DNA of 64,000 nt, taken from assembly GCA_910574455.1 (NCBI GenBank), contig CAJSYZ010000008.1, positions 4,032,707 through 4,096,706 of the forward strand, given 5' to 3'. This document shows positions 12,954 to 41,668 of this stretch, in pieces. The notes under the pieces were generated by a model. The model was not told where the DNA came from. It made no database searches and saw only the letters and a list, made by a program, of their open reading frames with translations. Within the stretch, counting starts at the first letter, position 1. Each line of letters starts with the position of its first letter. The position numbers were made by a program, and so were the translations under genes. This stretch comes from Trichaptum fuscoviolaceum. Taxonomy: Eukaryota; Basidiomycota; Agaricomycetes; Hymenochaetales; Trichaptaceae.

Positions 12954-13042
12954 TTAGGTCAAAAGTCCAGGCTCACCGCCGCTCGGACTCGACACCCTCA
13001 CGCTCTTTACTTCTACCCCCGCACCCGTACCGCCGACCAGCG

Positions 13043-20184: not shown

Positions 20185-20478
20185 TGTTAGAATGAGTCAC
20201 TCGGAGTCATATGATGAACTGATTCATTAGATAGACCTGGTGATCTGACTGATTGTGACTAGGACAATAGTTGTACTGCGCAGCATGTATGAGTCGTGTA
20301 CGCAGCATGGTCTGTGCATTGTTCCATAGTGTTCTATGTGTTTCTCTCTATTGTTCTCTGTACAGTATATAAGTAGAGCGTATAAGCTCAGGAATATTAT
20401 CAAGTTATCAGTCCCCTCGAACTGTGTGTTCACCTGTGCTATTGCCGCTACCTTCAGATCTCTTCGTGACTTCTACTA
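20185..20478 (+). repeat. copia 5' LTR
   Basis: 294 bp starting TGTTAGAATG, ending TTCTACTA. It contains TATATAA at 20366-20372, a good core-promoter candidate in the sense direction. Confidence 0.92.
20366..20372 (+). promoter_or_regulatory. TATA box candidate of the copia element
   Basis: TATATAA lies within the LTR about 160 bp upstream of the Gag-Pol start and is duplicated in the 3' LTR near 25023. Confidence 0.5.
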
Positions 20479-20532
20479 GGTTATGAGCCTTGCTGGCTCT
20501 GACTAGCGCGCTACTGGGACTATTCATCGTTT

Positions 20533-23500: not shown

Positions 23501-24834
23501 ATTATTACGCTAACGACACTCGTGCTCCAGTTGCTCGTCTATCTACAATCCGCGGCATACTCGCATACGCCGCAACGCACGACTGGGAGATCCATCAGAT
23601 TGATGTCAAGTCGGCATATCTGTACGGCGAACTCGACTCAGACGAAGAAATCTACGCACGCCCACCAGTTGGCTATACACTTCCAGGTATTAGGCCAGGA
23701 CAGGTGATTCGTCTTATCAAAGCTCTCTATGGTCTTAAGCAGGCAGGTCGGCGATGGTACCAGGTTCTTTGCAAGATCCTTGAAGGCGCCGGACTTCAAC
23801 GCACCGATAAGGAAGAAGCACTCTTCTATCGGCATCACCCGGACGGCCACATCACTGTCACGGTATCATGGGTTGACGACTTGTTTCTTGCATCGAGCAA
23901 GCGAGGCAACTGCAACGAGCTGAAGAAGAAGATCGGCGAGAAGGTCGAGTACACTGATGGCGGGGAAGTCAGCTGGGCACTTGGTATGGAGATCAAGCGG
24001 AATAAGCCTACTCACGTTATTGCTATTCGCCAGCTCCCATACATCGAGACCATCATTACTCGATATGGCTTTGACGACGCCATGCCCATGAAGATTCCTG
24101 CGAAAACTTCCGTCCACCTCAGCACTGACCAGGCTCCCCAGACTCAGGAGGAGCGCACCGATATGGAGAAACGACCGTTCCGAGCAGCCGTTGGAGCTTT
24201 ACGCTATGCTGCTGACGTTTCGCGCCCCGACATCGCTTGGATCGTTGGGCAGCTCGCTCGCTATATGTCCAATCCTGGACCGACGCACTGGACAGCACTT
24301 AAGTGTGTGTTTCAGTACCTGAAGGCGACGAAGAATAAGTGGTTGATGCTAGGAGGGAATGGGAAGGACGAGTTGGAAGGATTCTCGGACTCAGATGGAA
24401 TGTCCACGGAAGGACGACGCCCTATCTCCGGCTACATATATCGGTTTGTCGATTCAGCTATTTCTTGGTCTTCTAAGCGACAAGAACTTGTCACGCTATC
24501 GACCGCTGAAGCCGAATACGTTGCGTTAACGTACGCCGGGAAGGAAGGTGTATGGCTAAGTGAGGTACTTGGCCAGGCACTAAATTTAGATCTCAAGCCG
24601 TTTACGCTTCACTGCGACAACACGTCTGCGATCAACATTGCATCGGACGACGTTTACCATGCACGCACGAAGCACATCAACATCTACTATCATTGGATAC
24701 GCGATCAAGTATCTTTGGGAAAGATACTAGTCAAGTACGTCGCTACAGATGACAACTTCGCTGACATCTTGACGAAGGCTCTGCCTGAGCCTAAGGTCAA
24801 TCACTTTGTCGATGGTATCCGACTACGTGCTTGA
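20533..24834 (+). CDS. gag-pol: copia Gag-Pol polyprotein
   Basis: 1433 residues with no internal stop. Order: Gag (residues about 80-300), a Lys/Gly-rich basic linker (GKGKKGWGKGKRN), CCHC knuckle (CYNCQGYGHYSKQC, about 355), aspartic protease (FDTGATIHVTP, about 424), GAG-pre-integrase (HVRLGH...CVTCAVSK), integrase core (HMDIWGPA; AHNGVAERVHGT), copia reverse transcriptase (YKARLVVQGFTQ; IDVKSAYLYGEL; SWVDDLFLAS near 1113) and RNase H (SWSSKRQELVTLSTAEAEY; TKHINI). This order, integrase before reverse transcriptase, defines Ty1/copia. All expected motifs are present, so the enzyme set is probably functional. The ATG at 20533 is the first in this frame after the leader. Confidence 0.97.
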   Translation: MLTRATGAALPDIFTIDTDLYPQPIRPLVTLRARRREAHQIYNNLRGQHFANFFRSFAQLTPDNPPFNAPTVVEEPVMATNVNKNFDSVDKLTNDAGNYRIWIARIKGAIKASRGRALITAAPDAASMTLNDEIVNAICGKLPNSIYTKVMHLDNTHELLAALDRDYNVVTHTVEAVTEAQLYTLKCTNDRDINGHLDKMLEVRDKIAEFGRQITDETFINAISASIPEAYRDVIAITKQSIDQSNQSTGAQILALRAALGHIPAFPAANLPVFEPRQLTSTEVINALRQKAASKAAVSGTTRKHDRQEKEKEEQANWVKGKGGKKDWGKGKGKKGWGKGKRNDDSKGKSEDRKCYNCQGYGHYSKQCPSPKRKQKDSANEAKGEGSKPAEKAQTAKIEEVVATAMPADAWMATTPETVFAIDVFDTGATIHVTPDQNRLYNVKKTEPFAIRTANGNYVHTTIKGDMDIKVPHGNRFNTIKISDVRCNPSFTSTLISPNKLDEKRYTLLFEDGKLFIRDPKKKLIGIIAKRNGVYAANWANMATTDDANTWPMLSLYDLHVRLGHVNYAYIKKMASSGKLKGLRLDPNHQEERSCVTCAVSKIRRTVIPPQRTSPTVPKYGDHVHMDIWGPAKVQTPSHGRYALTIVDDTTRWCHMFVMPNKSDALSQYVKFQTWLQTQYGITVKVLQSDNDGAFLSKDFDEYLAKNGTDRRLTVHDTPAHNGVAERVHGTIFQIVCTNLASARLPTNLWGEALTYALYVYNRTPHSGLQFRSPFEARYGTPPDLTSIYPFGQQCVVRLESADKLTERGVQCRWLAPDEPSNGYRVYWPSRKVSTERNIRMIFGVEEENSNDPPQDIDIGPEREDNTSDQPASDTTTRPKRPTKAPERLTYMAEETAEAWLASGGDPLGDPITIFEVNKRPDADQWYAAMEVEINSLLKHKTWEYVTPPHGANLTGLKFVYRTKRRTDGSIDKYKARLVVQGFTQVEGIDYYANDTRAPVARLSTIRGILAYAATHDWEIHQIDVKSAYLYGELDSDEEIYARPPVGYTLPGIRPGQVIRLIKALYGLKQAGRRWYQVLCKILEGAGLQRTDKEEALFYRHHPDGHITVTVSWVDDLFLASSKRGNCNELKKKIGEKVEYTDGGEVSWALGMEIKRNKPTHVIAIRQLPYIETIITRYGFDDAMPMKIPAKTSVHLSTDQAPQTQEERTDMEKRPFRAAVGALRYAADVSRPDIAWIVGQLARYMSNPGPTHWTALKCVFQYLKATKNKWLMLGGNGKDELEGFSDSDGMSTEGRRPISGYIYRFVDSAISWSSKRQELVTLSTAEAEYVALTYAGKEGVWLSEVLGQALNLDLKPFTLHCDNTSAINIASDDVYHARTKHINIYYHWIRDQVSLGKILVKYVATDDNFADILTKALPEPKVNHFVDGIRLRA

Positions 24835-24841
24835 GGAGGAG

Positions 24842-25135
24842 TGTTAGAATGAGTCACTCGGAGTCATATGATGAACTGATTCATTAGATAGACCTGGTGA
24901 TCTGACTGATTGTGACTAGGACAATAGTTGTACTGCGCAGCATGTATGAGTCGTGTACGCAGCATGGTCTGTGCATTGTTCCATAGTGTTCTATGTGTTT
25001 CTCTCTATTGTTCTCTGTACAGTATATAAGTAGAGCGTATAAGCTCAGGAATATTATCAAGTTATCAGTCCCCTCGAACTGTGTGTTCACCTGTGCTATT
25101 GCCGCTACCTTCAGATCTCTTCGTGACTTCTATTA
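24842..25135 (+). repeat. copia 3' LTR
   Basis: 294 bp, essentially identical to the 5' copy and followed by the target duplication GGTAG (25136-25140). Confidence 0.92.
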
Positions 25136-26138
25136 GGTAGATTGGGCTTCTGAACAAATAGCGGACGCTTCACCTATAATGTACTCAGGAGCATCAAAGC
25201 CGTAGAGTCTGCAGATGAGATTAACTAGTTTTGTTTTAGATTGATAGAAAGTCAAGGGCACACCTGTATGCCTTCAACACCTGTATAAGTCGTTGCCGTA
25301 GATTTTGAGCAGTTTCGGGCGAAGGCTGTACTTGCCAGACGCCTTTCTCTGAGACTAGATCGGAGGATTTCTCATCGGGACGTCGTTTTCCTACTACGAT
25401 AACAGTTTCCCTCGCAAGCTTTACCAACAAAAGAAACCACTTCCTGTCTGGGTGTGAGCAAGGAAGAGATACAGCGAGCGTTTCCAGTTGGAATATGGGA
25501 TCGATGCGAGAAACCTTGGAGTAGATCCGGCCACAGCCTGAGTATGGAGTCATGGACACACGAATGAGCGCGGCAAGAGCACATGCTGATCTGTCGATTG
25601 AGTTTGACCTGAAAAAGGTTGAGTGTATTCCTTCCTTCCGCGGAGACGTTTCAGATGCGTACTGTGTCTGCTTCGCGAGACCATTTATCCCAGCAACAAC
25701 CACCGATTCATTCGGAATATCGGAAAAAATATCCGGAGCGACGTCATGTAAAGTCGCTGAACTCGAATAATAGGAAAAGAAGAGTCGGCCGCCTGCCTCG
25801 ATATACTGCGCGATGCGGGCGGGGTGGAGGGACCCAATCGTGAAGCGCATAGCCAGCCTCTCGATTCGCCTTCCCATTGGCTGGAATATGTATGTGTCGA
25901 GGTAACGACCAGTCCCTGGCTGGTTGTCGACGGTTGCAGTCGTCGATGTTGAGATGATGGAGATTCCGTCATCGTCGTCGTCGTCGCAGGCCAGTTTCGA
26001 ATGTACTTGTGCAAGCGCTGGAAGCCGGCGTTCAAAACCCATGTACATGTATAGTAGGTAATCCGAGTTATTCCTCTCTTGCCACCCTTCTCCAAGAATC
26101 ACTCTGGCTAGAATGGCTTTCGGGTTGATTTTCGGCAT
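25136..26138 (-). pseudogene. 5' part of paralogue copy 2
   Basis: Exon 1 runs from ATG 26136-26138 to 25264 with a 55-nt intron (25209-25263). Exon 2 starts at 25208 and is cut by the copia element after the GGTAG at 25136-25140. The exon 1 frame is open and aligns with copy 1 through DNQPGTGR, PMGRRIERLAMRFT, SLHPARI, RKWFLLLVKLARE and SPETAQNLRQRLIQVL. It carries an Asp run (DDDDDD) like copy 1. The two large insertions and the downstream frame changes make the whole locus (12101-26138) a pseudogene. Confidence 0.8.
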
Positions 26139-28191: not shown

Positions 28192-28740
28192 TGTTACGTT
28201 CACGGCTTCGATGGACTTATCACGGAAATGATAAGTGACCAAAGCGTTGTTGGGTGAAGTAGCAAGTACAGTATAGAGGGTCCGCTTTGTGAGGGTCTCT
28301 ATACCGGAAGTCGTGGGTGAACAGAGTCTTTGGTACGTGATTGTAAAAGACTATAGGAGGATTGACTTAAGTGTCATCCTGGGGCGCTATATACATGGCC
28401 TTATATACTACAGAGAACAATAGAGTGGAGCAAGGAATGAAACTACATCATCGCGGGTCAGAAGTGGAGTGAGTCCGTCATAGTGGCTCTAATTAATGGA
28501 GGATGATGTCGGATCGGAGCATAGGTGGAGTAGAGTGGAGTAGAATGATGTATCATCGGAGTGGAAGGTTATGGGGCGCTTGGAGTGAAGGAGGAGTGAG
28601 TGGAGCCATCGGAGTGTGGAGTCGATGATGAAAGAATGATGCAATGTGTGTACGCACATGCAGGTAGAAAGGGTGAGAGAAAAAGATGAGGGGGAACATA
28701 AACAATGTGTAAACAAGGGTAAGCAGCTTGATGTGTAACA
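28192..28740 (-). repeat. gypsy-2 3' LTR
   Basis: 549 bp at the left edge, downstream of the minus-strand genes. The complement contains TATATAAGG, as does the other copy. Confidence 0.9.
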
Positions 28741-28905
28741 ATACCCTGTCACTAAGATTGAAATTCCGTAGTAGCATAGAAATGCGAATGCGAGAATTTC
28801 AAAGAAAGGTACAACGCTATAGGATCAAGTTAAGATCAATAAGTAAAAGCGTAAGAGAGAGATAAATATCAGTCGCTATAGGGTCAAGTTAAGACCAATA
28901 AGGGT
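28741..28905 (-). promoter_or_regulatory. gypsy-2 conserved 3' non-coding block
   Basis: Shared with gypsy-3 (55477-55626) in order: ACCCTGTC next to the LTR; an inverted repeat formed by GAAATTC...GAATTTC about 30 bp apart; and two copies of a block like CTATAGG(A/G)TCAAGTTAAGA followed by (C/T)CAATAA. Conservation outside coding sequence suggests a cis element, for example for minus- or plus-strand priming, packaging or 3' processing. Confidence 0.5.
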
Positions 28906-29745
28906 TCAAGCGTGTGGATTAGTCCAGTCGATGGGGGCATATGTCTCGGGCGAAGTGAAGTCCTCGGGTCGGGGAGTGTTGACCACATAAACTGGCGAAG
29001 ATGGTTGGATAACGACGTTGGGCGGAGTCATGTGAGGTAGTTCAGGAAGGGGAACGTCCTGGGCTTGCTGATTGATCGCCTGAAGTTCTTCCTCTGTCGG
29101 TAAGTGGAGCTGTTGATGAGGGCTGGGCAATGGCGGAGCGGATTCGAAGTCACTGAGTCGATCGAGGTCGAAGATCGGCACATGCGCTTGCTCATGGTAT
29201 GCATCGGACGCAGCCAGCGGGGGTAGCTCGAGAGGAGAGGGAGTCTTCATAGGCTGTGGTTCCGGGTCGTCTGGTAAGTGTACCTGTCCATCTTTGATTT
29301 CCGATGAGAGGAGGCGCTCGAATTCGTACTCGGTGAACTGGTTCTCGAGTTGAGTAATAAGAACTTGATTCATGCGACGTACTAGCTCCTGATACTCATA
29401 AGAATCAATCTTCTGCTTCCTGAGTCGGTTGTTCTCCAAGATATCAAGCATTTTGCACAAGTGGCCATACATCTGTTGCGTAGTGTAGACGATGTGCGGG
29501 AGTGGACTGATGCTGGTGTTCTTGGTGAGGTCGCGAAGTTTGCCGTTGTGGAGAAGAGCGGCTGCACACTGTCGACGGGTCTGCGAGGTCTGGATGAAGG
29601 GGAGTCCGGGGAGGAGTTGGTCACATAGAGGGGGGAGGAGGAGGCCTTCTCTGTATCTCTGTCGGTTCGGGTGCACTCGTTTCTGTGTCGAAGTGTAATA
29701 GAGGCGACCCGAGAGTCCGTGCCGGGTGTTGCGAGTAACGGGCAT
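28906..29745 (-). CDS. gypsy-2 accessory ORF-C
   Basis: 279 codons from ATG 29743-29745, starting 11 nt beyond the ORF-B stop. The gypsy-3 ORF at 55627-56412 is homologous: both have an ALLH(N/S)G(K/L)L block followed by an IVYT or SVYT segment, a helical region ending RRMNQVLITQL or RRLNQVMMGQL, the block (E/D)FTEYEFERLL, then DAYHEQ or TAYHDQ before PIFD, and a Pro-rich C-terminus with NTPRP or HTPRP. No signal peptide, membrane segment or known domain is visible. It is not recognisably an envelope protein. Function is unknown, but conservation across two diverged elements implies a translated, selected protein. Confidence 0.7.
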   Translation of the reverse strand: MPVTRNTRHGLSGRLYYTSTQKRVHPNRQRYREGLLLPPLCDQLLPGLPFIQTSQTRRQCAAALLHNGKLRDLTKNTSISPLPHIVYTTQQMYGHLCKMLDILENNRLRKQKIDSYEYQELVRRMNQVLITQLENQFTEYEFERLLSSEIKDGQVHLPDDPEPQPMKTPSPLELPPLAASDAYHEQAHVPIFDLDRLSDFESAPPLPSPHQQLHLPTEEELQAINQQAQDVPLPELPHMTPPNVVIQPSSPVYVVNTPRPEDFTSPETYAPIDWTNPHA

Positions 29746-29756
29746 GGGGACTAGTT

Positions 29757-30308
29757 CTAGTGAACCGGGCAGTACCTGCAACACTTGCATATGCAGATCG
29801 GGTCTTCGTCGTACGCCACAAAGTGTTGCTGCGCTGTTCCTGCGTGGCGGATGCGGCGGCCTATCCAGGGGACGTAAGGGAGCTCGAGGAGGATGTGGAG
29901 GGCTTGGAGAATTGGGACAGCGTATTCGGGGGTGAAGAAGGTGCGGCGGAGGACTAGAGTGGTGAGCTGGGGGTGGGGGTTGAGAGTCTTGAGACGGCGG
30001 ATGTTGACAAGATCGGTGTGGGCCGGGTCGAAGATATACTCTCGGACAAGGTCGAGAGGACTCAAAGGGGGAAGTGTAGGAGAGGGAGGGGGACAGGGGT
30101 ATTCGTTCTCGGGGTGGACGGGTGTCAGTTGCGGGTGCCATATGCCATTGTGCCAGTCATTTGCGTGATTGCCCCAGCCTGTTACCCAGAGGGGATCAAT
30201 ATCCTCAACAGGTAGTAAGGGTCCGGGGTCAGTGGCGGCGAGGTGTTCCTCGGCGTCAAAGGGAGGGACTTCGAATGTTGGATTGGGGGTGTCGAAGTTG
30301 AATGGCAT
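29757..30308 (-). CDS. gypsy-2 accessory ORF-B with Cys-rich C-terminus
   Basis: 183 residues from ATG 30306-30308, overlapping the end of ORF-A by 53 nt. The homologue in gypsy-3 is 56366-57049. Shared: start MPFNF(D/N)TP, a Pro-rich middle, LDLVREYIFDP or VDLVQHYLFDP, LVLR(R/H)TFF(T/N)PE, LPY(V/T)P(W/Y)I(G/T)RRIRH, and a C-terminal CxCxCCxYCPxH (CICKCCRYCPVH here). The Cys/His spacing could bind zinc or form disulphides. No secretion signal is seen. Function is unknown. The same ATG context and position in both elements supports the start. Confidence 0.75.
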   Translation of the reverse strand: MPFNFDTPNPTFEVPPFDAEEHLAATDPGPLLPVEDIDPLWVTGWGNHANDWHNGIWHPQLTPVHPENEYPCPPPSPTLPPLSPLDLVREYIFDPAHTDLVNIRRLKTLNPHPQLTTLVLRRTFFTPEYAVPILQALHILLELPYVPWIGRRIRHAGTAQQHFVAYDEDPICICKCCRYCPVH

Positions 30309-30873
30309 GTCGAGTGGGGATATTTTCTTTGTCAGAATCGGGGTTGTCTGTGGTGTGACTGGTCAGGGATTCCGTGGAGGTGGTCGGGCTATATGCAGGA
30401 GAAAAGGGTTCCAAGGGCGGAGGGGATGTGGAACTGTTGGAGCTAGAAGTTCGAGCGGGTGCCGGTTGCCTGTGAATGAATCTAAATCCGTTTGGAAGTT
30501 GTACAGATCCTTCGAGGTCATTTGACTTGACCATTTGAATTAGTATATAGAGTCCTATCGAAAGGTGTGCCTGGTGTAATGGAGTCGCATGGGTAAGAAG
30601 AGTATCGATGAAATTGATGAGGTGATTGAGCGGTGGAGTGTTGGGTTCTTCCTGTTGATGAATGAAATTGAATAGGTGGAAAATGAGTGTGGGTTGACGG
30701 TTGGTCGGAGTTTCTGCTGCTAGTGTGCGAAGGTCGTTAAGAATTTGTTCTTTGCTTATTTCTGTGGGAGGGGGAGGGTCATTACGAAGGGGTTGTGGAG
30801 ATGGTATCGGAGTAGGGCGGCGGTGGTTGGTATTGCGGTGTTGACGTGATAATGAACTGATTGTGCGGCCCAT
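30256..30873 (-). CDS. gypsy-2 accessory ORF-A
   Basis: 205 residues from ATG 30871-30873 (MGRTISSL). It overlaps ORF-D upstream and ORF-B downstream in other frames. It resembles gypsy-3 57093-57791: a helical block (EQILNDLRTLA; HLFNFIHQQ) aligns with RQLTELREIA; HLFYFVFKD. Both then have a Leu-rich helix region and a long Ser/Thr/Pro-rich acidic tail containing LEPFSP. Function is unknown. The tail could be disordered or phosphorylated. Confidence 0.65.
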   Translation of the reverse strand: MGRTISSLSRQHRNTNHRRPTPIPSPQPLRNDPPPPTEISKEQILNDLRTLAAETPTNRQPTLIFHLFNFIHQQEEPNTPPLNHLINFIDTLLTHATPLHQAHLSIGLYILIQMVKSNDLEGSVQLPNGFRFIHRQPAPARTSSSNSSTSPPPLEPFSPAYSPTTSTESLTSHTTDNPDSDKENIPTRHAIQLRHPQSNIRSPSL

Positions 30874-31078
30874 ATCGTACTGAAATTTCCGGGGTGTCTC
30901 TTCGATATGCGTGTGAGAACACGAAGCGTTGATTGAAAGGCTGATAGGGTCCTGGGCCTTTGTCAATGCGTTTGAATGCTTCGATAAGGAGTAGTTCCGC
31001 AAGATCCTTGACTTCAGGGCGGATGTCAAGTGAGAGGATGTATGCACAAACGTTAGCGAGATCGGCTGGTTTGATCAT
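30782..31078 (-). CDS. gypsy-2 accessory ORF-D
   Basis: 98 residues from ATG 31076-31078, which is the first ATG on the coding strand after the end of pol (31238). It overlaps ORF-A by 92 nt in another frame, and its TGA overlaps an ATG (ATGA). Similarity to gypsy-3 57673-58023 is weaker but co-linear: a helical N-terminal half with I(R/H)P, then GP(H/N)N(Q/E)F(I/F)IT. Function is unknown. Confidence 0.55.
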   Translation of the reverse strand: MIKPADLANVCAYILSLDIRPEVKDLAELLLIEAFKRIDKGPGPYQPFNQRFVFSHAYRRDTPEISVRYGPHNQFIITSTPQYQPPPPYSDTISTTPS

Positions 31079-31237
31079 GGCCTGGTGGGTAGGGGAGCTT
31101 CTGGGTTCGATGAAATACTTCTGGGGTTGTCTAGATTCCGGGTGGTAGTTGAGATTACACTCGGAGTTTCGGAGGATTTTGACAGATGGCGTTGTGTACT
31201 TGTTCCGGATGGGGTAATTGGACAGATGACCGGGAGG

Positions 31238-34200
31238 TCATTTGATCCGGTGTGCCTTCTTGTATTCCAATAGAAGTTCCTGAGTATTCTCCAGTGATTG
31301 TTCCGATATCCATTGGTTCTCTGATGTCGGGTATCCTAGCCATTTGACGAGATATTCGCGTTTCCTTGGTGGTCCTCGGTGATTGAGTATCGCTTCGACT
31401 TCGAATTCTTCTTCTCCTTCGATAAGGTCAGGTGGCGGTCGTGTGTAAGATGGTCCATGTTCGTCCGTTTCCTTGTGTGGAGTGAGAAGAGAAGCATGAA
31501 ATACTGGATGTATTTTCCAATGCTCTGGAAGATCGAGTTGATAGACATTGTCCCTGAGCTTCTTGATGATTGTAAAGGGTCCTTCTCGTTTAGATTGGAA
31601 TTTCGAGGGTAGTCCGGTGCGTCTGAGGTTCCTGGCTTCTAACCATACACTTTGTCCTTCTTCCAAGGGTTGGAAGTGTGATTCTTGTGTCTCACGCTGG
31701 AATTCTTGTGCGAGAGTTAGAGCTGCTTCGGCTTCGGTTCGGAGTTCCAATATCTTGATTAAACGAGTTTGGAGTGTGGGGATGTTACTGTCGATCTCGG
31801 ATTTTTCCGTAGGGAATGACGTGGGGTCGTATCCCATGAGTAATCGGAAAGGGGTCTGCTCTGTGGTGGAATGCTTGCGATTGTTGTGAGTGAATTCCAT
31901 CATTGGTATGTATCGTGACCAATGTTGGGGGTGGTTTGCTGCGTAAATTCGGAAGTATGCTTCGATTTCCTGGTTCGTTCGTTCTGCTTGTCCATCTGTT
32001 TGTGGGTGATATGCTGTAGACATAGCCTGCTTGATGTGCAGTAAGCGGCATAGCTGTCTGAATAGTGTCGATGCAAATTGGGGTCCACGATCTGAGATTA
32101 TTTTCCTGGGTAATCCAAATCGTTTGTAGACGTTGTCGATGTAGAGTTGTGCTGTATCGAGTGCGGTGATTGTCTTGTTGCATGGGGTGAGTACTATTGC
32201 CTTGGTGCAATCATGGTCCACAATAACACATATGCTGTCATAGCCATTTGATTCCGGTAGGTCGGTAATGAAATCAATATTGACTGTAGCAAAGGGGTAT
32301 GTGTCTTTGTCTGCGATGATCGGGCTGAGCGGAGGTACGAGTGGATGGTGATTTATCTTCATCTGTTGGCAAATTGCGCATCCTTGCACATATTTCGAAA
32401 TGAACTGCTGCATGCGGGGCCAGTAGTAGGTGCGTCGAATCTGTTCCATCGTGTTTGCTATTCCTGGGTGATTTCGCGTGGGGAGGTCATGATGAAGTCG
32501 TAAGATGTTTCTCATGATTTCCTTGTTCTTCGGAACATAGATCTTGTTCCTAAAGTGTACAAGGTTATCCTTGATTGAGAAGTCGGTCATCTTTGGTTTC
32601 GTGAGGGGGAGTTCTTTCTGAATGAGTGTCATTGCTTTCTGAATGTTGCCTGTTTCGAGTCGAATCTTGTCATGAAGTTCGTCGATGTCAATGGTGTTTC
32701 GATCGTCATCGTCCTGTTCTTCTATTTCGGCTTCGAGTATTTCCATCTCTTGAATGAAAACCTTTTCTGGTAGAAGTGTAACTTCGTTGTCGAGTTCTCC
32801 TTCCGTTTTAAATTGATCGGGTCTCCGGGAAAGGGCATCGGATTGGATCATGTGTTTTCCGGGGACTGCTTGGATTTGGAGGGGGTAACGTGAAAGTTCG
32901 TTCTGCCATCGGGCTTGTCGAGGGGTTAATCTTTGTGGTTGTCGCCAATAGGTTAGGTTCTTGTGATCACAATGTACTGTGATAACGTGTGGGCTGCCTA
33001 ATAGATAGTGTCGCCATGTCTGTAATGCGCGGATGATAGCAAATAGTTCCCTGTCGTATATTTGCCAGTTTCGTTGTGTCGGATTAAGTGCTTGGGAGAT
33101 GTATCCAATTGGTCGTAATTGATTATCCTTGTCGAGTTGTCGTAGTACTGCACCAGTAGCTACGGCTGAAGCGTCGGTTTCGAGGTAGAATGGCTTGTTC
33201 GGGTCGGGTTGCATAAGGAGTGGTTGTTTCGAGAATAAGTCCTTGAGTGTTTGAAAAGCATGTTGTTGTCGGTCGGTCCAAACGAATGGTATGTTTTTGC
33301 GTTTTAGTTGATCAAGGGGTCGGCATATGGTGGCATAATGGGGAATGAATCGCCTGTAGAAGTTCGTAAATCCTGTAAATGATCGTATGTCTCGTAGATT
33401 CTTTGGTGTCGGCCAGTCAACTATTCCTTGTATCTTCGTCGGGTCAGTCTTGATCTGTGACTCGGAGATAATGTATCCTAGGAATGGGACTTCGGTCTGG
33501 TGAAATCGGCATTTGGCAGGTTTGAGATATAGCTTGTGTTTCTTGAGGACGTCGAAAACTTCGAGGGTATTCGAGATAAGTTGTTGCATAGTGGCGGCAT
33601 GGATCATAATGTCGTCCATGTAAACAATACACTTGTTTTCGCGGATTTGCTTTGCAAGTATATCATTCATGAAACGTTGAAAGGTGGCGGGTGAATTGCA
33701 TAGGCCAAAGAACATAACTGTTGGTTGAAAGTGTCCTTCTTCGCAGTTGAATGCGGCTTTCCATTGCTCTTCTTCCTTGATTCGAATGTTGTGGTATCCT
33801 TGTCGAATATCGAGGGTGGTGAAGTATTTGGATCCTTGGAGTTGATTCAATAGTGTCTGGGTGTTCAGTATCGGAAATCCATCGCGGATTGTATGCTCGT
33901 TTAGATATCGATAATCCTGAATCGGTCGGAGGGTTCCATCTTTCTTGCTGATGAAGAATAATGGTGAGGCCATTGGTGATGCGGAGGGTTTAATGAATCC
34001 TTTCTTGAGTAGGTCATTAATAAGATCACGGAGTATGGGTCTTTGGTGGTACGGAGTATTGTAGGTTTTGAAGATTTTCGGTATAAATGAGGGTTTCGTC
34101 TTGATTTCGTGATCGTAAGGTCGTGCTGGTGGATATGTTTGGATTTCTTTTTCGGAGAAAATGTTGGCATAGGGCATATATTCCTTTGGGATGTCGAGTT

Positions 34201-34675
34201 TTTCTGGTGGTGGAAGTTTCTGTTGTTTTTCTTGTTCCATTCGGGTTGAAATCGTAATCTTGTTTATGGTGATTGCATCGTTTCCCCAGTCTATCTTTGG
34301 TTTAGCTTGTTTAAACCAAGGTAGACCTAGTATAACGTCGTCCTTTGGGATATGAGTGAGATAGAAATGTGGTGAAAGAGTGTGTGGGTGTGTGATGTGG
34401 ATTCGAGTTCGTTTGGTGACACTGCCTTCTGTGTTGAGTGTACCATCGGCGTTACTGACTAGTATGGGTTTGTCAATTTTCTGCGTTTTTAGGTTGAGTT
34501 TGTTGGCTAGTTTTGAGTTGATGAAATTGAGTTGTGCTCCGGTGTCGAGTAGAGCTGAGAGTGTGTGAGGTTGTCCGTTAATGAGTACCGTGATGGGTAT
34601 GCGAAAAGAGCGAGTGTTTCCGTTGATAGTGATGGTGTTGAGTTGAATCGGATTAACCAACTCGGAGTTGATCAA
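31238..34675 (-). CDS. pol: gypsy-2 Pol polyprotein
   Basis: 1145 codons, no stop. Order: aspartic protease (LLDTGAQLNFINS, near residue 42), reverse transcriptase (LDIRQGYHNIRIKE; YMDD near 352), RNase H (LETDASAVATGAVLRQ; WQIYDRELFAIIRAL), integrase HHCC finger (HHDLPTRNHPG...YYWPRM...GCAICQQM, about 720-770), integrase core (VNIDFITDLPE; SDRGPQF; AYHPQTDGQAERTNQE), and a C-terminal chromodomain (EFEVEAILNHRG...YLVKWLGYPTSENQW, about 1085-1140). It has no ATG at its start and begins in the -1 frame at the gag stop, so it should be made as a Gag-Pol fusion by frameshifting. All catalytic motifs are present. Confidence 0.95.
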   Translation of the reverse strand: MINSELVNPIQLNTITINGNTRSFRIPITVLINGQPHTLSALLDTGAQLNFINSKLANKLNLKTQKIDKPILVSNADGTLNTEGSVTKRTRIHITHPHTLSPHFYLTHIPKDDVILGLPWFKQAKPKIDWGNDAITINKITISTRMEQEKQQKLPPPEKLDIPKEYMPYANIFSEKEIQTYPPARPYDHEIKTKPSFIPKIFKTYNTPYHQRPILRDLINDLLKKGFIKPSASPMASPLFFISKKDGTLRPIQDYRYLNEHTIRDGFPILNTQTLLNQLQGSKYFTTLDIRQGYHNIRIKEEEQWKAAFNCEEGHFQPTVMFFGLCNSPATFQRFMNDILAKQIRENKCIVYMDDIMIHAATMQQLISNTLEVFDVLKKHKLYLKPAKCRFHQTEVPFLGYIISESQIKTDPTKIQGIVDWPTPKNLRDIRSFTGFTNFYRRFIPHYATICRPLDQLKRKNIPFVWTDRQQHAFQTLKDLFSKQPLLMQPDPNKPFYLETDASAVATGAVLRQLDKDNQLRPIGYISQALNPTQRNWQIYDRELFAIIRALQTWRHYLLGSPHVITVHCDHKNLTYWRQPQRLTPRQARWQNELSRYPLQIQAVPGKHMIQSDALSRRPDQFKTEGELDNEVTLLPEKVFIQEMEILEAEIEEQDDDDRNTIDIDELHDKIRLETGNIQKAMTLIQKELPLTKPKMTDFSIKDNLVHFRNKIYVPKNKEIMRNILRLHHDLPTRNHPGIANTMEQIRRTYYWPRMQQFISKYVQGCAICQQMKINHHPLVPPLSPIIADKDTYPFATVNIDFITDLPESNGYDSICVIVDHDCTKAIVLTPCNKTITALDTAQLYIDNVYKRFGLPRKIISDRGPQFASTLFRQLCRLLHIKQAMSTAYHPQTDGQAERTNQEIEAYFRIYAANHPQHWSRYIPMMEFTHNNRKHSTTEQTPFRLLMGYDPTSFPTEKSEIDSNIPTLQTRLIKILELRTEAEAALTLAQEFQRETQESHFQPLEEGQSVWLEARNLRRTGLPSKFQSKREGPFTIIKKLRDNVYQLDLPEHWKIHPVFHASLLTPHKETDEHGPSYTRPPPDLIEGEEEFEVEAILNHRGPPRKREYLVKWLGYPTSENQWISEQSLENTQELLLEYKKAHRIK

Positions 34676-35536
34676 AAATTTCCATCATCATCGTCAAAAT
34701 CATTGTTGTCATCATTGGGATCGGGCATTTCGTCTAGCATGTTGAACAATGCTTCCTGTTCCTGTCCATTGAGGTCTGTCATCATTTCATGGATCTGGAT
34801 TGCGCGTTCAGCAATCAAATCGTCCGGGTCGTCGGGTTCTTCGTCAAGTTCCATCGAGTTGATGTTTCGCTTCTTGAATCGTCCATTGTTTCGTCTGAAG
34901 TTGTTCTGGAATTTCCTTGGGGATTTTCCTGAGCTTCGGAACTTCGAGGTGCGTGCGGGACGCGAAGGGCATTTGTTTGCAAAATGTCCTGCCTTCTTGC
35001 AGTAGAAACAGAGTCCATCTGCTTGCGCTTTCTTCTTTTCCTCGGGCGTAAGCTTGTTGAAGTACATTGCATAGAGCTTGAATGATTCTTCCAGATTTTC
35101 CGGTTCCTCGGGTTGGTCTGATTCGGGTTCAGAATCTATGTCCATCTCGTTGAGTCGTCGTCTGCGAAATTTGTTGAATCGAGGTCGATTATATGAAGAT
35201 TGTCCATAACGGTTGCGGAGTCGATTGAACGGGCGGTTGTCCTGATAGATCTCCTCGTATGATTTTCCTATCTTCCTGGCTGCTTCGTAGTATGGTGCCA
35301 TTATCTTTATTCCATTGTCTGGAACTGGGATATCCTTCTGAAGTAGTGCGGTTCGCGTGTGTCTCAGTAATCCATTCTTGAACATGGAAAAGAGTACTGT
35401 GAAGTCGGTGATGTTTGCTTCACGTGCGAGTCGCTGGAAGTTATGAATGTAATCGTCGATTTTGTCCGTAGGTGCTTGCTTGAGGCTAGAGAGTTCCTTG
35501 AATGCGTCGGCGATGTAATCGGTTGAGATGAAATGT
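34672..35536 (-). CDS. gag: gypsy-2 Gag, 3' portion (split by fold-back insertion)
   Basis: The frame enters at the fold-back element's target duplication (35530-35536), reads HFISTDYIADAFKELSSLK and continues to a CCHC knuckle (CFYCKKAGHFANKC) and an acidic C-terminus ending at 34672. With the part at 38104-38381 it totals 1143 nt (380 residues plus stop), in frame and close to the 388-residue gypsy-3 Gag. The last codons read GGA AAT TTT TGA. Confidence 0.85.
34674..34682 (-). promoter_or_regulatory. gag-pol -1 frameshift site (A AAT TTT)
   Basis: In the gag frame the last codons are GGA AAT TTT TGA. The heptamer A AAT TTT fits the X XXY YYZ rule, and pol is open in the -1 frame from exactly here (AAA TTT TTG ATC). 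The same arrangement occurs in gypsy-3 at about 61715-61723. Confidence 0.7.
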
Positions 35537-36647
35537 CAGTCCTGCCAGTTAGTTCATTGAATGAAATACAGTGTTTGCTGAATGTACTGGAGATACTCAT
35601 TGAATGAGATTACAGCTATTACTGCATGATATAGAGCATCTGATTGAATGAAGTACAGTGTTGCTGTAAACCATGCTCTGCATTTACTCTCAGCAAATGC
35701 TGGTTGAAGCAGTGTAGGGTGAATCAGCCTTGCTGTACATTGATTCAGGGGATGCATACCTAGGGAATACTAGGCATGCAATACCTATTGGGAATATAGC
35801 ACTGGATAATAGAATAATGCATTGCATACCCACCGCTTTTTTAGGTTAATTATAGCATTCAGGTACTGTTGATTGATAGTATGCTGTAATAAATCAGAAT
35901 TTCATAATTTCCATCTATTTTGAGATATGAGGCACACCAGGGTCCAGGACCCTGAGGTCTGGCAGGTTCCAGGTCACTTGGTGCCGCTTTAGAGGAGGCC
36001 GTGGGAATAAACTCAAATTAACCTTTGCAGGTGCTACAAGGCCTTCTAAAATAGCACGAAAATAACCAAAAAATCAGAAAATATTCCTGGACACTGCCGC
36101 TTCGCCCTAGCGTGGGAACTACGCTTCTGAGCGACCATATTAGGGTACCAGTGTGTTCTGGGCCCTCCTGGGCCCTTCCTAAAGCGGTAAAAATCATCAT
36201 AAAATAGATAATTATATTCATTTGCACCTGCATATATGCAGGCTTCTCCTGGGCTTACCAGCAGCAGATAAAATATGCTAAAATCGGATTATATTAGTAG
36301 AAGTATATTGAACATGATCTGGATAGCTAAATAAGGTAATACTAGCTGGGAACATGTATAGAACAGCAGAACATGTTCTATTTTTAATACATAACATATG
36401 GGGCCCATTGCACCACATTGGGGTACCCCCAGAATGCAAATTTCAATAGGAATCCAATGGGACGTACTAGAAGAGCTGAAACGGGCTTTGAAGGCGCCAA
36501 AATATGCATTTTACGTATTGTTACAAATTATTCTTTTATTTAAGTGTTAATTTTGTTACAGCACTTCTACTGCACGTAAAGGCATGTATAAATAGTCGAA
36601 ATGGTACAGAACAACGAGGAGAACAATAATATGAGCTTATAATAGCA
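35537..36647 (+). repeat. left arm of the fold-back element
   Basis: About 1.01 kb of this arm pairs with the right arm. Its outer ~100 bp (35537-35637) is not in the right arm but carries a second, diverged copy of the subterminal word ATTGAATGAA(A/G)TACAGTG, possibly a transposase-binding repeat. Confidence 0.8.
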
Positions 36648-37074
36648 TGTTTGGGGTACAGATGGAATCTGTAAGTTATATGTCTTTCTGACATAACATG
36701 TGCATTCTGATATTACACTTAGCATCTCATCCTACAATGTTGTATATAACTTGTACATTTCAATGACATCCCAAACATGCATTTGGATTATGTTTAGAAT
36801 ACTCATAGTGAATGTTTGGCACTATGTGCCTGACCCATAACCTTCCCAATAAATTAAAATTGACCTATCTTTCCGAAAATTGTATACCTTATATCAATTT
36901 GAAATGCGCTCCGATCGACGTGAAACCTCGCACAATGCGAGAGGTATCTATAGACAGCTATTTAAAGCTTTCAGAGTACGTGCACAGTATACAGACATGT
37001 ATATGAGTGACTAACAATAATTGCATGCTCTCCGAAAATGGTTAGTGTGATAGAGCTATATATAGCCCCCGCGT
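36648..37074. other. spacer of the fold-back element
   Basis: 427 bp of AT-rich sequence. Its left part forms a smaller inverted repeat (GCATGTTTGGG at 36643-36653 against CCCAAACATGC at about 36772-36782). No protein-coding frame of note. Confidence 0.6.
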
Positions 37075-38096
37075 TGCTATTATAAGCTCATATTATTGTT
37101 CTCCTCGTTGTTCTGTACCATTTCGACTATTTATACATGCCTTTACGTGCAGTAGAAGTGCTGTAACAAAATTAACACTTAAATAAAAGAATAATTTGTA
37201 ACAATACGTAAAATGCATATTTTGGCGCCTTCAAAGCCCGTTTCAGCTCTTCTAGTACGTCCCATTGGATTCCTATTGAAATTTGCATTCTGGGGGTACC
37301 CAATGTGGTGCAATGGGCCCCATATGTTATGTATTAAAAATAGAACATGTTCTGCTGTTCTATACATGTTCCCAGCTAGTATTACCTTATTTAGCTATCC
37401 AGATCATGTTCAATATACTTCTACTAATATAATCCGATTTTAGCATATTTTATCTGCTGCTGGTAAGCCCAGGAGAAGCCTGCATATATGCAGGTGCAAA
37501 TGAATATAATTATCTATTTTATGATGATTTTTACCGCTTTAGGAAGGGCCCAGGAGGGCCCAGAACACACTGGTACCCTAATATGGTCGCTCAGAAGCGT
37601 AGTTCCCACGCTAGGGCGAAGCGGCAGTGTCCAGGAATATTTTCTGATTTTTTGGTTATTTTCGTGCTATTTTAGAAGGCCTGTAGCACCTGCAAAGGTT
37701 AATTTGAGTTTATTCCCACGGCCTCCTCTAAAGCGGCACCAAGTGACCTGGAACCTGCCAGACCTCAGGGTCCTGGACCCTGGTGTGCCTCATATCTCAA
37801 AATAGATGGAAATTATGAAATTCTGATTTATTACAGCATACTATCAATCAACAGTACCTGAATGCTATAATTAACCTAAAAAAGCGGTGGGTATGCAATG
37901 CATTATTCTATTATCCAGTGCTATATTCCCAATAGGTATTGCATGCCTAGTATTCCCTAGGTATGCATCCCCTGAATCAATGTACAGCAAGGCTGATTCA
38001 CCCTACACTGCTTCAACCAGCATTTGCTGAGAGTAAATGCAGAGCATGGTTTACAGCAACACTGTACTTCATTCAATCAGCTACCTGGCAGCAGTG
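37075..38096 (-). repeat. right arm of the fold-back element
   Basis: Inverted copy of the left arm, ending GGCAGCAGTG at 38096. Confidence 0.8.
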
Positions 38097-39416
38097 GAAA
38101 TGTGACTTGAATTTGTCAACGAATTGTTGCCAAGTCATAACCCATTGTGCATTGTCCTGTTCGTCTTTAACATTCTTTGCAAAGATTGCAGCAGGTCCTT
38201 CAGTGCAAAAGGAGAGTGCAAATCGTATTTTGCGTTGATCGGTTGCATAGTCCAAATCGTTGAGTGCCAAGTAGTTTTCAACAAGGCTAAGCCATCGGCT
38301 AGCTTCGCTTCGTTTGCCGGTAAAGTTAAAAGGTTTGTTTGCTCCGGTGCCTCGTGGTTGATGGTCTGCTTGATCGGCCATTTCGACTATCACTGGGGTT
38401 CCTGGGTGTGTTGGTGACGGTGGGGGTGGGGGTGGCTGTGGAAGGTTTTCCTGATCGGGGTGTTCGTCGTTTTCCAGAATTTCGGGTACAGGTGAGCTTC
38501 GGTTACTATTGTTGGCGTTAACCGATGTAGATCCTTCGGCTGAGTGTGCAGATCCTTCGGCGGTGTGTGCCGTGTCCTCGGCTTCTGAGTCTTCTTCTGA
38601 TTCGTCTGAAGTTTCTGCTTCAGATTCTCGTCTGCGTCTTCTGAGTTCAGCTTCCTCTTTCTCTAGTTGCTCGAGAGTGAGGATAGTTTGTGTCTCCTGC
38701 GAAGTGTAGTTCTTGGGAAGTGGAGTCCAAGTGGGTATCCAAGTTGCGCCTTCTTCAAATCTAGTGTCGATGCGAAGTCCTTCAAATTGTCCTACAAGTT
38801 CTTCGTCGTTGTCCTTTGCCTTGACTTGGGCTTTGGGTTCTGGTTCTTCGGATTCGAGTTTAAAAACAGGTGCAGGTGTTTTAACCTTTGGTTGGGTGAA
38901 TGTGAGGAGTGGGGAGGTTTGTTCAGCTTTAGGTGCTGCTGCTGCGGCGTAGGATAAGGAGGGTGGTGCTGTCGATTCAGCGGGTGGTGTTTCGGTTTTA
39001 GCTGGTAGTGCTTCTGGTTGAGTGGTGATTAATGGCGAGTGTTGTGAAGGAGCGGGTGATGCAAGTTGAGAAGAAACAACTCTGGGTGAGTTAAGTCGAC
39101 TGCTTGTTCTCGATGTTCTTGCAAGTATCTGGTCGATTTCTTCCTGACTGGGTTCGATTCCTGCGTACCAAGTATTAACCTGTTTGTAGTATGTGGTCGG
39201 GTTCTTGATTGTATGCGAGATTGCTCTCCAGGTGTCGTGTCCTGAGTGAAAATGAAGGTAGACTTTTCTTCTGGATTTGTCAAGTCTGTACCAGGCTCGG
39301 TTTACTGGGTCAAATTCAGCGTTTTCTGGGCGGGTAACTCCAACGGGTACTTGTGCTGCTATGGGTACGTATTTTCCTGGGACTGGTGGTCTGTCTTTCG
39401 GCGCCAGTTTAACGAG
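38097..39416 (-). CDS. gag: gypsy-2 Gag 5' portion with methionine-free N-terminal extension
   Basis: The canonical Gag start is ATG 38379-38381, followed by a GANKPFNF block shared with gypsy-3 and by capsid-like sequence (SRWLSLVENYL) up to the fold-back insertion. The same frame stays open upstream for another 345 codons to a TAA at 39417-39419, with no methionine. This extension resembles the gypsy-3 one: WRAI against WKAI, then a YY/FYR region, (V/A)(G/D)QFE(G/T)LR and a Pro-rich run before the start ATG. Translation of the extension would need non-AUG initiation, recoding or splicing. Gag should form the capsid and bind RNA. Confidence 0.7.
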
Positions 39417-39431
39417 TTACTGAAATTTAAT

Positions 39432-40030
39432 TCAGTTGGTGTCTTCGTTTGCTGGGGGAGTCGGAGTAACGGTTCGGCTTCCTTCTTCGGGTTCAACAGG
39501 GGGTGGAGTAATGGATCGGATGGATGCTTCGAGAGGTGGGCTGGCAACTCGGGTGGGTGGTTCAGAGTGTAGTAGGTAACAAATACACTTCCGTATTTCG
39601 GTTGCAACGTCCTGGGGTTGTCCGGGCCAATAAACGATTGATGTGAGGTTCAAGAGGGTTTCTCTTTCGGAGAAATGATCAATGGCGTTGTCAACTTTGG
39701 TGTGGCAGATTCCAATAAGGCCTTTGCGAAGGTAACAATCGGGAATGTATGGCTTTCCTTCGAACCAAAAGATGCCGTGTCGGTAGATCCAATTAGTGGG
39801 GTCGTGTCGTATGGAGTGTAGACGGAGTTGGAGGTATTGTAGGTCGTATTTGGAGTTCTGTTGAATCGGATGAACTAATGCACTGTTGACAAGGTGCTGA
39901 TAGTTGTCTTCAATTAGTTGGTCGAAGTTGGGGGCGGGAGCGGGAGCTTGATTCGCCAGATTGATTAATCGGTTGTTGTAATGTATTCCTGAGTCGTCTT
40001 CCTGTCCTTTGGAAAGTTTGTCTGAGGTTT
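39432..40030 (-). CDS. integrase-type H2C2 zinc-finger-like frame upstream of gypsy-2 gag
   Basis: About 199 codons, no ATG, ending TGA at 39432-39434. The central part reads like the zinc-binding head of a gypsy integrase: WIYRHGIFWFEGKPYIPD, LRKGLIGICH, a second His 9 residues later (AIDH), then VYWPGQPQDVATEIRKCICY. This gives H-x8-H...Y-WP...C-x-C, with one residue rather than two between the cysteines. The gypsy-3 frame at 63719-64000 is homologous (CYWPDVEEDVQTYINRCGCQ). Element integrase already has its own finger at the usual place in pol, so this is an extra copy. Function unknown; RNA or DNA binding is a guess. Confidence 0.55.
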
Positions 40031-40529
40031 CCTAAAGTTCTGGAAGGTCCTGGAGCGGGTGTGGGAGTTCGTTCGGACGTTCGAAGTTGAGGGAAGGGAC
40101 GTAGGGCTTGTTCTACGCTTGGGGGTGTAGTGATCGGAGGGTTGGAGTGATTCGGAGTCACGGGAGGTAGTAATCTGTTGTGCTCAGATACTTCGTTCAA
40201 TGGTGGCTTGGGTTCTCGAAATCTGTTCCTTCCTCGGCGGAGTATGCGTAGGTTTCCTGAGTAACAGTGGGTTCTAATCGAGGGGGTACAAGTTGATCGT
40301 AGAGGCTTTCGTTATCTTCTTGCGTTTGATGTTCGTACTCGGAGTAGTCCTGTGGGTCTGTCCTGCTTTCGTCAAGTTCGGAGGGGTTGTGAGGGGGTGT
40401 GTCGGATTGGTATGAAGTGGGTTGTAAGTCGTAGATGGAGACGGGGTTAAGGATGTTGATCCTTAGTACGCCTGCCAACGGTAGTTCCGTGCGATCGGCG
40501 AGTAGTATAGTAATCCTCAGGTTGGGCAC
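39910..40529 (-). other. further methionine-free open frames in the gypsy-2 leader
   Basis: Two frames, 40529-40197 (110 codons, begins right after a TAA with no ATG) and 40200-39910 (96 codons, Pro/Arg-rich), follow each other with a few bases of overlap and lead into the H2C2-like frame. They may be parts of one product joined by frameshifting or splicing, or chance openings. Confidence 0.3.
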
Positions 40530-41119
40530 TTCCTCGGGTTATCAACCCTTTGAGCTACAAGAGTATGCGTGAGTGATATTAACGTCTTCGGATACCTTGT
40601 CCTTTCTGTCTTCCTAGGTTCGCTGGATAATCTGTTTCGATGTTCACCGTGTATTGCTGTCGTCTACGAGTGAGGGTATGCTTGTCTTCCGGCTGTGGCA
40701 GTTTCTGTGGTGGATGAGACCTTTCCCCTGCTTCCTTCTTCTCTTCAAGTTACGTTGGACGTGGCTAAGCTGCTTGAATGGGTCGCGATCCTCTGCTTCA
40801 CGCTATCACCAACCAAACGCGTAACAAGGACCGTAAATTCTGTCGTGAACCTGCTTAATTTCTGCGATTACTTGTCTGTTGCTTCCTTCCAAGTATAGCT
40901 CTGTATGCTTGGTGTATTCGATCGTACTGTCGTTCGTATTCCTTTCGTTCCTATATGATAGTTAGTAGACAAGGGCCAGTTGTAATACTTAACCGTCAGT
41001 ATTCCAGATTGGAATGCGTAGGGGTACCGATTTATTCTGCTGTAGAATGTGGTAGAGCGTAGAGGGGGGGTGTTTCGGAGTTGAGATCGATCTCAGATGA
41101 GAAAGAAGTCAATCCTAAT

Positions 41120-41668
41120 TGTTACGTTCACGGCTTCGATGGACTTATCACGGAAATGATAAGTGACCAAAGCGTTGTTGGGTGAAGTAGCAAGTACAGT
41201 ATAGAGGGTCCGCTTTGTGAGGGTCTCTATACCGGAAGTCGTGGGTGAACAGAGTCTTTGGTACGTGATTGTAAAAGACTATAGGAGGATTGACTTAAGT
41301 GTCATCCTGGGGCGCTATGTACATGGCCTTATATACTACAGAGAACAATAGAGTGGAGCAAGGAATGAAACTACATCATCGCGGGTCAGAAGTGGAGTGA
41401 GTCCGTCATAGTGGCTCTAATTAATGGAGGATGATGTCAGATCGGAGCATAGGTGGAGTAGAGTGGAGTAGAATGATGTATCATCGGAGTGGAAGGTTAT
41501 GGGGCGCTTGGAATGAAGGAGGAGTGAGTGGAGCCATCGGAGTGTGGAGTCGATGATGAAAGAATGATGCAATGTGTGTACGCACATGCAGGTAGAAAGG
41601 GTGAGAGAAAAAGATGAGGGGGAACATAAACAATGTGTAAACAAGGGTAAGCAGCTTGATGTGTAACA
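41120..41668 (-). repeat. gypsy-2 5' LTR
   Basis: 549 bp. Its complement carries TATATAAGG (41327-41335), placing the promoter in the direction of the minus-strand genes. Followed by target duplication CAATT (41669-41673). Confidence 0.9.

Follow-up and report, generated by a model that had tools for sequence, protein, structure and literature searches.

The window analysed here is a 64-kb stretch (64,000 nt) of the Trichaptum fuscoviolaceum genome (assembly GCA_910574455.1, contig CAJSYZ010000008.1, positions 4,032,707 to 4,096,706), whose minus strand carries at 28192-41668 an element that we term F1. F1 is a young chromodomain Ty3/gypsy retrotransposon bounded by long terminal repeats (LTRs): its Gag precedes a Pol in which Pfam domains occur in the order protease, reverse transcriptase (RT), RNase H, integrase and chromodomain, and its 5' and 3' LTRs differ by 3 mismatches over 549 nt, so that the insertion is young. 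Between the predicted RNA start and the Gag ATG lies a leader of 2915 nt with no ATG in any frame, in which three methionine-free frames, A, B and C, follow one another (Table 1). Two diverged families in the same genome, F2 and F3, were discovered through frame B and share this layout.

Absence of ATG from the leader

As the initial annotation had claimed, CAT on the plus strand (ATG on the coding strand) is absent between 38382 and 41303, with the flanking CATs located at 38379 and 41303; the second-longest CAT-free gap in the window measures 787 nt. The opposite strand, on which ATG had been described as common, holds 41 in the same interval, and across the whole window the plus strand has no ATG-free run longer than 700 nt. 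Against 1000 dinucleotide shuffles of the leader, 0 ATG were observed on the coding strand versus 19.6 expected (standard deviation (sd) 3.7, minimum 8), and the suspected shortfall against chance thus withstood the shuffle test. ATG is frequent on either side of the leader, where the 782 nt that begin with the Gag ATG (copy L022) contain 18 and the 372 nt of U3 contain 10; Pol has 58 in 3447 nt.

A 1-kb piece of the leader gave 37 near-full matches at ≥96% identity in the genome (59 Mb, 12 contigs), the window included, plus two fragments. Thirty F1 leaders, again including that of the window, are complete and six are incomplete, while one copy with a 2.5-kb insertion (L043; 47 ATG, of which the eight listed lie at position 2485 onward) was set aside. 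No ATG was present in 19 of the 30 complete leaders, and the other 11 carried 1-3 each; the six incomplete ones carried 0, 0, 0, 1, 2 and 0. The depletion proposed from the window copy therefore recurs in most complete copies of its family. Over the 36 aligned F1 rows, ATG occurs at 17 sites, 14 of them in a single copy and three in two copies each, mostly by ACG to ATG change. None of the 127 substitutions carried by at least three copies makes an ATG common to at least three copies (5.0 expected under a CpG-aware model, P = 0.0025), and with the threshold at four or more copies the expectation is 3.9 (P = 0.0125); one substitution carried by eight copies makes an ATG in L016 alone, together with a rarer second change. 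Read together, these counts suggest that ATGs arise freely, yet go unseen in lineages that kept copying.

The two other families extend this pattern. F2 is represented by 28 matches to its leader piece (27 near full length) and F3 by at least 40 copies (40 of 56 candidates scored), and we read, whole or in part, the leaders of four of the 27 and five of the at least 40, respectively. The complete F2 leaders contained 0 ATG in 2726 nt (L060), 0 in 2714 nt (L061) and 1 in 2760 nt (L059); the complete F3 leaders contained 0 in 2568 nt (L066), 1 in 2544 nt (L064) and 1 in 2566 nt (L065). Partial leaders gave 0 in 1848 nt (L062, F2), 0 in 2141 nt (L063, F3) and 1 in 1936 nt (L067, F3), and the ATG positions differ among L064, L065 and L067. 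At aligned positions, leader DNA identity is down to 55% between F1 and F2 and 42% between F1 and F3, and the common lack of ATG has therefore been maintained rather than left over as a relic. Summed over one representative per family (L022, L060 and L066, picked for being ATG-free), 0 ATG stand against 62.4 expected (sd 6.5). The trinucleotide GGG is also scarce on the leader sense strand, at 3 versus 15.0 expected in F1 (L022), 8 versus 14.7 in F2 and 7 versus 9.7 in F3.

Methionine-free frames and candidate start codons

Measured from stop to stop, the F1 frames span 209 (A), 199 (B) and 329-348 codons to the Gag ATG (C; 295 in L033). Frame A has 209 codons in 21 of the 30 complete leaders, 248 in one, and is fused to B in two (L026 and L032), where a single frame of 368 codons results; B and C each passed the frame tests in 29 of 30. 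The F2 counterparts have 209 (A), 216 (B) and 279, 275 or 290 codons (C in L060, L061 and L059, respectively), and those of F3 have 152 (A'), 213-252 (B) and 312 (C). Amino-acid identity to F1 amounts to 42% for A (F2), 31% (F2) and 24-25% (F3) for B, and 30% (F2) and 23% (F3) for C. Among F1 substitutions shared by at least two copies, the nonsynonymous/synonymous ratio relative to expectation was 0.28 for A, 0.34 for B and 0.29 for C, versus 2.58 and 1.64, 2.58 and 1.85, and 1.77 and 1.47 in the respective shifted frames, although one shifted frame of B drops to 0.87 when only substitutions in at least four copies are taken (n = 17). By these ratios A, B and C of F1 are under amino-acid constraint, which bears out the earlier suggestion that the leader holds conserved open frames without methionine: they are real coding sequence.

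The lack of ATG exceeds what these proteins require. In synonymous-codon shuffles of nine frames (three per family, 2017 codons, from the ATG-free representatives), 0 out-of-frame ATG were observed versus 23.3 expected, the lowest of 2000 summed shuffles having 11, and the frames contain 0 Met codons. Taken singly, five of the nine frames reached P < 0.05 for zero ATG; the A frames, which are poor in such sites, did not. The stretches 5' of A (757, 746 and 791 nt) likewise have 0 ATG each, versus 6.7, 6.9 and 7.0 expected.

Frame B resembles the N-terminal zinc-binding domain of integrases (H2C2). Its F2 version matched Pfam PF17921 with 32.5 bits (gathering cut-off 25.5), with the F1 (20.0) and F3 (19.7) versions both below the cut-off; a B profile built from the three families gave a match to the integrase of the element itself (E 1.8e-7, probability 93.8), and a profile search of the PDB with B matched the Ty3 integrase chain (7q5b, E 0.025). 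Unlike the integrase domain, B is free-standing, encoded 5' of Gag and without catalytic core or chromodomain. At a guess, such a free zinc domain might take part in integration or bind Gag, RNA or host chromatin. A single-sequence structure model of B had a mean predicted local distance difference test (pLDDT) score of 39 and was discarded.

Conserved near-cognate codons lie near the 5' ends of the frames. At the head of A, GAAGTGCCCAACCTGA is conserved in 30 of 30 F1 leaders and contains both a GTG and a CTG; conservation of the protein with that of F2 sets in at this point. The site in F2 that matches the candidate B start of F1 reads AACCTGGC, and the candidate C start has the counterparts CTG GC in F2 and ACC ACG GCG in F3. 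The pattern purine-N-N-(CTG/ACG/GTG)-GC occurs exactly three times in each of the three complete F3 leaders, every time in frame: as ATC ACG GCA (A' codon 5), ATC GTG GCG (B codon 64 of 252) and ACC ACG GCG (C codon 25). It occurs exactly twice in each of the three complete F2 leaders, in frame near the 5' ends of B and C, and in F1 it is found at B (AAT CTG GC) and C (AAA/AAG CTG GC) in 30 of 30. If sites were placed uniformly, the probability that all of them would be in frame, each in a different frame, is 0.004 for F3 and 0.043 for F2. The pattern with GC at +4 is found 9 times versus 4.3 expected, and seven of the nine are the named starts. Avoidance of all strong near-cognates by the leader was considered and rejected, since purine-N-N-(CTG/ACG/GTG)-G shows no depletion (23 versus 21.3).

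Table 1 Features of the F1 element in the window (coordinates are window positions)
Feature	Position	Strand	Description
5' LTR	41120-41668	-	TGTTAC...GTAACA, 549 nt
TATA box	41327-41335	-	TATATAAGG; from sequence
Self-priming 11-mer	41286-41296	-	AAGTCAATCCT; predicted first RNA bases; exact reverse complement of primer-binding site
Leader	38382-41296	-	2915 nt, no ATG in any frame; ATG scan, shuffles
Primer-binding site	41106-41116	-	AGGATTGACTT; just inside LTR; reverse complement of AAGTCAATCCT
Candidate A starts	40518-40529	-	GTG 40529-40527 or CTG 40520-40518 (AAC CTG A); GAGGAAGTGCCCAACCTGA in 30/30 F1 leaders, near-identical in F2
ORF A	39910-40529	-	Proline-rich, no Met; frame broken in window copy
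ORF B	39432-40031	-	199-codon open frame, no Met; H2C2 integrase zinc-binding-like domain
Candidate B start	39957-39959	-	AAT CTG GCG; codon 25 of open frame; AATCTGGC in 30/30 F1 leaders
Candidate C start	39405-39407	-	AAA CTG GCG; codon 4; 30/30 F1 leaders (29 AAA, 1 AAG)
ORF C	38382-39407	-	342-codon in-frame N-terminal Gag extension, no Met
Gag ATG	38379-38381	-	First AUG of predicted RNA
Gag 5' part	38073-38381	-	Interrupted by palindromic insertion 35640-38080
Gag 3' part	34672-35535	-	Contains zinc knuckle
-1 frameshift heptamer	34675-34681	-	A AAT TTT; directly 5' of Gag UGA
Pol	31238-34684	-	Protease, RT, RNase H, integrase, chromodomain
3' LTR	28192-28740	-	549 nt
ORF, open reading frame.

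A Tf1-type self-priming pair sets the predicted +1 of the RNA at 41296. The 11-mer AAGTCAATCCT begins about 30 nt past the end of the TATA box, the counterpart of which, TATATAAACC, lies at a comparable distance in F2 and F3. In F3 the self-priming pair differs from that of F1 and F2 (AAGTTCGATCT and AGATCGAACTT) and again consists of complementary 11-mers; this joint change of both members speaks for self-priming. The distance from the last ATG to the predicted +1 is 6 nt in every F1 copy that includes this stretch and 10 nt in F3, so that the ATG-free run starts where the RNA is predicted to start. The position of the 11-mer argues for a transcription start just 3' of this last ATG, which in the window (41305-41303) is then probably just upstream of the transcript; were the true start a few bases further 5', the ATG would sit almost at the cap. 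The initial annotation had put the start near 41304: a start close by is indeed predicted, while the pair moves it to 41296, and from there the whole leader is ATG-free.

At the Gag-Pol junction, A AAT TTT TGA occurs in the F1 (34672-34684) and F2 (61713-61728) elements of the window and in F3 (L068 1255-1264, the one F3 Gag end read). Gag of the window copy is interrupted by a near-perfect palindrome (35640-38080) made of three adjoining inverted-repeat pairs (399, 391 and 227 nt; 99-100%) around a 427-nt centre. The F2 element of the window occupies 58288-63722, with a Pol (58288-61728) 79% identical to that of F1; 1848 nt of its leader contain 0 ATG, and the remainder lies mostly past the window end. 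Two further stretches, 12136-18842 and 20183-25138, have repeated ends that are 100% identical, and the latter is a Copia-type element. Among the 120 matches listed for F1 Pol, the best reached 93% identity, fungal-named relatives (Lyophyllum, Moniliophthora, Candolleomyces, Phellinidium, Antrodiella) 42-50% and one frog record 42%. No known RNA family was detected at gathering score in 38000-41500.

A leaky-scanning reading of the leader and its rivals

Sequence alone shows that ATG has been purged in three families, that the frames are constrained and that near-cognate codons are conserved; we infer the transcript start, use of these codons, linear scanning and the roles of the proteins. The reading that we consider likely is that of a polycistronic leader whose coding frames ribosomes reach by leaky scanning, in keeping with, and supporting, the earlier interpretation of the leader. 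Ribosomes would enter at the capped 5' end of the RNA transcribed from the LTR (+1 at about 41296) and from there scan along 2.9 kb. Some of them would initiate first at A, on GUG or CUG in moderate context, then at B and subsequently at C, each on a CUG in strong context, and C would read through into Gag to give an N-terminally extended protein. The remaining ribosomes would meet the first AUG and make plain Gag, with Pol produced via -1 frameshifting. Since any AUG would trap scanning ribosomes, ATG would be purged from all leader frames, the Met codons of A, B and C included; and since the frames encode constrained proteins, they must start without AUG. A CUG-started Gag extension of the gammaretroviral type, raised as a possible parallel in the initial annotation, is the best reading of frame C, for which the sequence offers a candidate start. 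Loss of ATG from all frames between cap and Gag AUG, whether they code or not, is what linear scanning best predicts, and selection against ATG throughout the leader speaks for its being seen by scanning ribosomes.

Several points weigh against this reading. The distance of 2.9 kb exceeds those described as scanned in the cited literature on rice tungro bacilliform virus (RTBV) and leaky scanning. The evidence on start codons is uneven: the A start in F1 and F2 lacks a G at +4, F1 leaders carry one or two extra ACG matches to the GC-type pattern at sites other than starts, the looser purine-N-N-(CTG/ACG/GTG)-G is matched 11 times in F3, with several matches out of frame, and F3 B has a further strong CTG in frame near its 5' end. 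For substitutions in at least six copies (79) the ATG-gain test is weak (2.2 expected, P = 0.09), for those in at least two copies there is no clear deficit (5 of 181 versus 6.5, or 10.1 CpG-aware), and private substitutions gain ATG at a near neutral rate (13 of 248 versus 9.4, or 17.0 CpG-aware). Private substitutions are themselves amino-acid constrained (A 0.46, B 0.54, C 0.39) and hence not purely post-insertion, and, as the copies are related, the substitution counts cannot be treated as independent. A single genome supplied all three families. Furthermore, no relative elsewhere was found for B (protein search, 52 candidates, nothing at E 1e-3; and a viral-contig search) or for C (protein search, 7990 candidates scored, nothing at E 1e-3). 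Pol as query gave 4497 matches at E 1e-30 in the protein search and none in the viral-contig scan. Divergence, limited search sensitivity or ATG-based gene calling may account for the missing B and C relatives.

Two alternatives retain scanning in part. C could be reached by termination and reinitiation after B, given that its start lies only 5 nt (F2 and F3) or 24 nt (F1) beyond the B stop. We regard this as unlikely, since B has about 175-190 codons and reinitiation normally works poorly once a long ORF has been translated (PMC5902531); moreover, B starts inside A, so that simple reinitiation cannot reach B or explain the series, and an ATG purge between cap and A is required by scanning alone. 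Somewhat less likely still, scanning of the full RNA might yield Gag (perhaps C) only, with A and B made from spliced RNAs in which an AUG is created at an exon junction or a non-AUG codon is moved nearer to the cap. Intron-like stretches (GTAAGT...CTAAC branch sequence...TAG) are indeed present at 302-344 in F2 (L060) and 165-281 in F3 (L066), and more weakly in F1, and an exon end in A (F2 and one F1 variant) together with the conserved GAAG/TGCCC at the A head could complete an AUG. By eye, however, the heads of B and C suit no AG/TG junction, the AAG that would have to act as acceptor 5' of A lacks a pyrimidine tract, the leader is retained in genomic copies, and long stretches spliced out as introns would not need to lack ATG. 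Removal of the F3 intron-like stretch would take out the primer-binding site and could separate mRNA from genomic RNA.

The remaining alternatives deny the leader its scanned or its coding character. That an internal ribosome entry site or a shunt bypasses it, the lack of ATG being a by-product of base composition, strikes us as very improbable. The sense strand is G-poor, and the first two 120-nt windows fold better than their shuffles (30 per window; z of -2.8 and -4.4 in F1, -2.2 and -5.0 in F2, and -2.4 in the second window of F3). Composition is nevertheless controlled by the dinucleotide and synonymous shuffles, the depletion affects one strand only, coding and non-coding parts are purged alike, and there is no AUG-started upstream open reading frame (uORF) of the type used in the cauliflower mosaic virus (CaMV) and RTBV shunt. 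Composition or mutation bias as the cause was accordingly rejected by dinucleotide, CpG-aware and synonymous shuffles, with the weaker points noted above. We give hardly any credence to an untranslated or decaying leader with open frames by chance: the searches mentioned above (proteins for B and C, viral contigs for B) recovered no homologues outside one genome, but constraint is seen in the correct frames and not in shifted ones, diverged families have homologous frames, and the F2 match to the Pfam H2C2 family exceeds the gathering score. Two further ideas were dropped. The leader does not stand out as unstructured (120-nt windows have a mean z of -0.4, -0.4 and 0.0), its low sense-strand structure following from composition; and the frame steps between A, B and C differ between families, so that no common frameshift can join them.

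Wider meaning and comparison with known systems

Beyond leaky scanning itself, we lean, on balance, towards a broader reading in which F1-F3 would represent a class of LTR retrotransposon making at least five products (A, B, extended Gag, Gag and Pol) from one RNA with a single AUG start. On the same reading, more than 2.5 kb would have been kept AUG-free through near-saturating divergence, and the methionine-free genes, including one for a free-standing integrase zinc-domain protein, would be invisible to gene finders that require ATG. If true, the scanned leader would be free of AUG over a very long distance, about threefold the 900 nt described for RTBV in the sources cited below, and would offer a natural test of the range and efficiency of scanning by small ribosomal subunits; there would also be three accessory genes, lacking Met codons, that ATG-based annotation has missed. 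With about 100 leader copies from the three families (37, 27 and at least 40 matches), it might become possible to measure the ATG purge as selection, and a long one-strand ATG-free run 5' of Gag offers a signature for finding such elements. New here are the three frames with their candidate starts, the same layout in F2 and F3, and the match to plant-pararetrovirus leaky scanning; at title and abstract level, the open-licence PubMed Central (PMC) literature yielded no comparable retrotransposon leader.

Several known systems share parts of this arrangement. Tf1 has a single ORF, unlike F1 with its long coding leader, separate Gag and Pol frames and frameshift heptamer. F1 nonetheless resembles the Tf1/sushi chromoviruses in its integrase chromodomain and in an 11-mer complementary to the primer-binding site, at a predicted RNA position. 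In Tf1/sushi elements the first 11 RNA bases are complementary to that site, as the relevant part of the cited work describes (PMC7175516). PEG10, a mammalian retrotransposon-derived gene, has a CUG start upstream of an in-frame AUG, a 34-residue extension and a -1 frameshift, according to the pertinent section of PMC2800197, and F1-F3 are like it in combining a candidate non-AUG Gag extension with a -1 frameshift heptamer. PEG10 differs in being a domesticated host gene with a short extension, and that section mentions no A- or B-like frames upstream. Closer to frame C is glyco-Gag of murine leukaemia virus, described in the corresponding passage of PMC3542737 as a CUG-started in-frame N-terminal Gag extension made beside AUG-started Gag; C is likewise an in-frame Gag extension, with a candidate CTG or ACG start known here from sequence, but comprises 276-342 codons (three representatives) and has two more frames upstream.

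The nearest parallel to the frame series is found among plant pararetroviruses. Caulimoviridae are not known to have integrase or LTRs, both of which are present in F1. F1-F3 resemble RTBV and the badnaviruses of this family in placing consecutive long ORFs free of internal AUG ahead of the main ORF. In RTBV, as set out in the relevant portions of two accounts (PMC5902531, PMC3542737), ORF I starts at AUU and engages about 10% of ribosomes, ORFs I and II have no internal AUG, and leaky scanning proceeds over about 900 nt. RTBV, as those portions describe it, has a single non-AUG start over this distance, begins ORF II at an AUG and uses a shunt that involves a uORF, whereas the predicted leader here contains no ATG and hence no AUG-started uORF, and its three non-AUG frames would be read along 2.5-2.9 kb.

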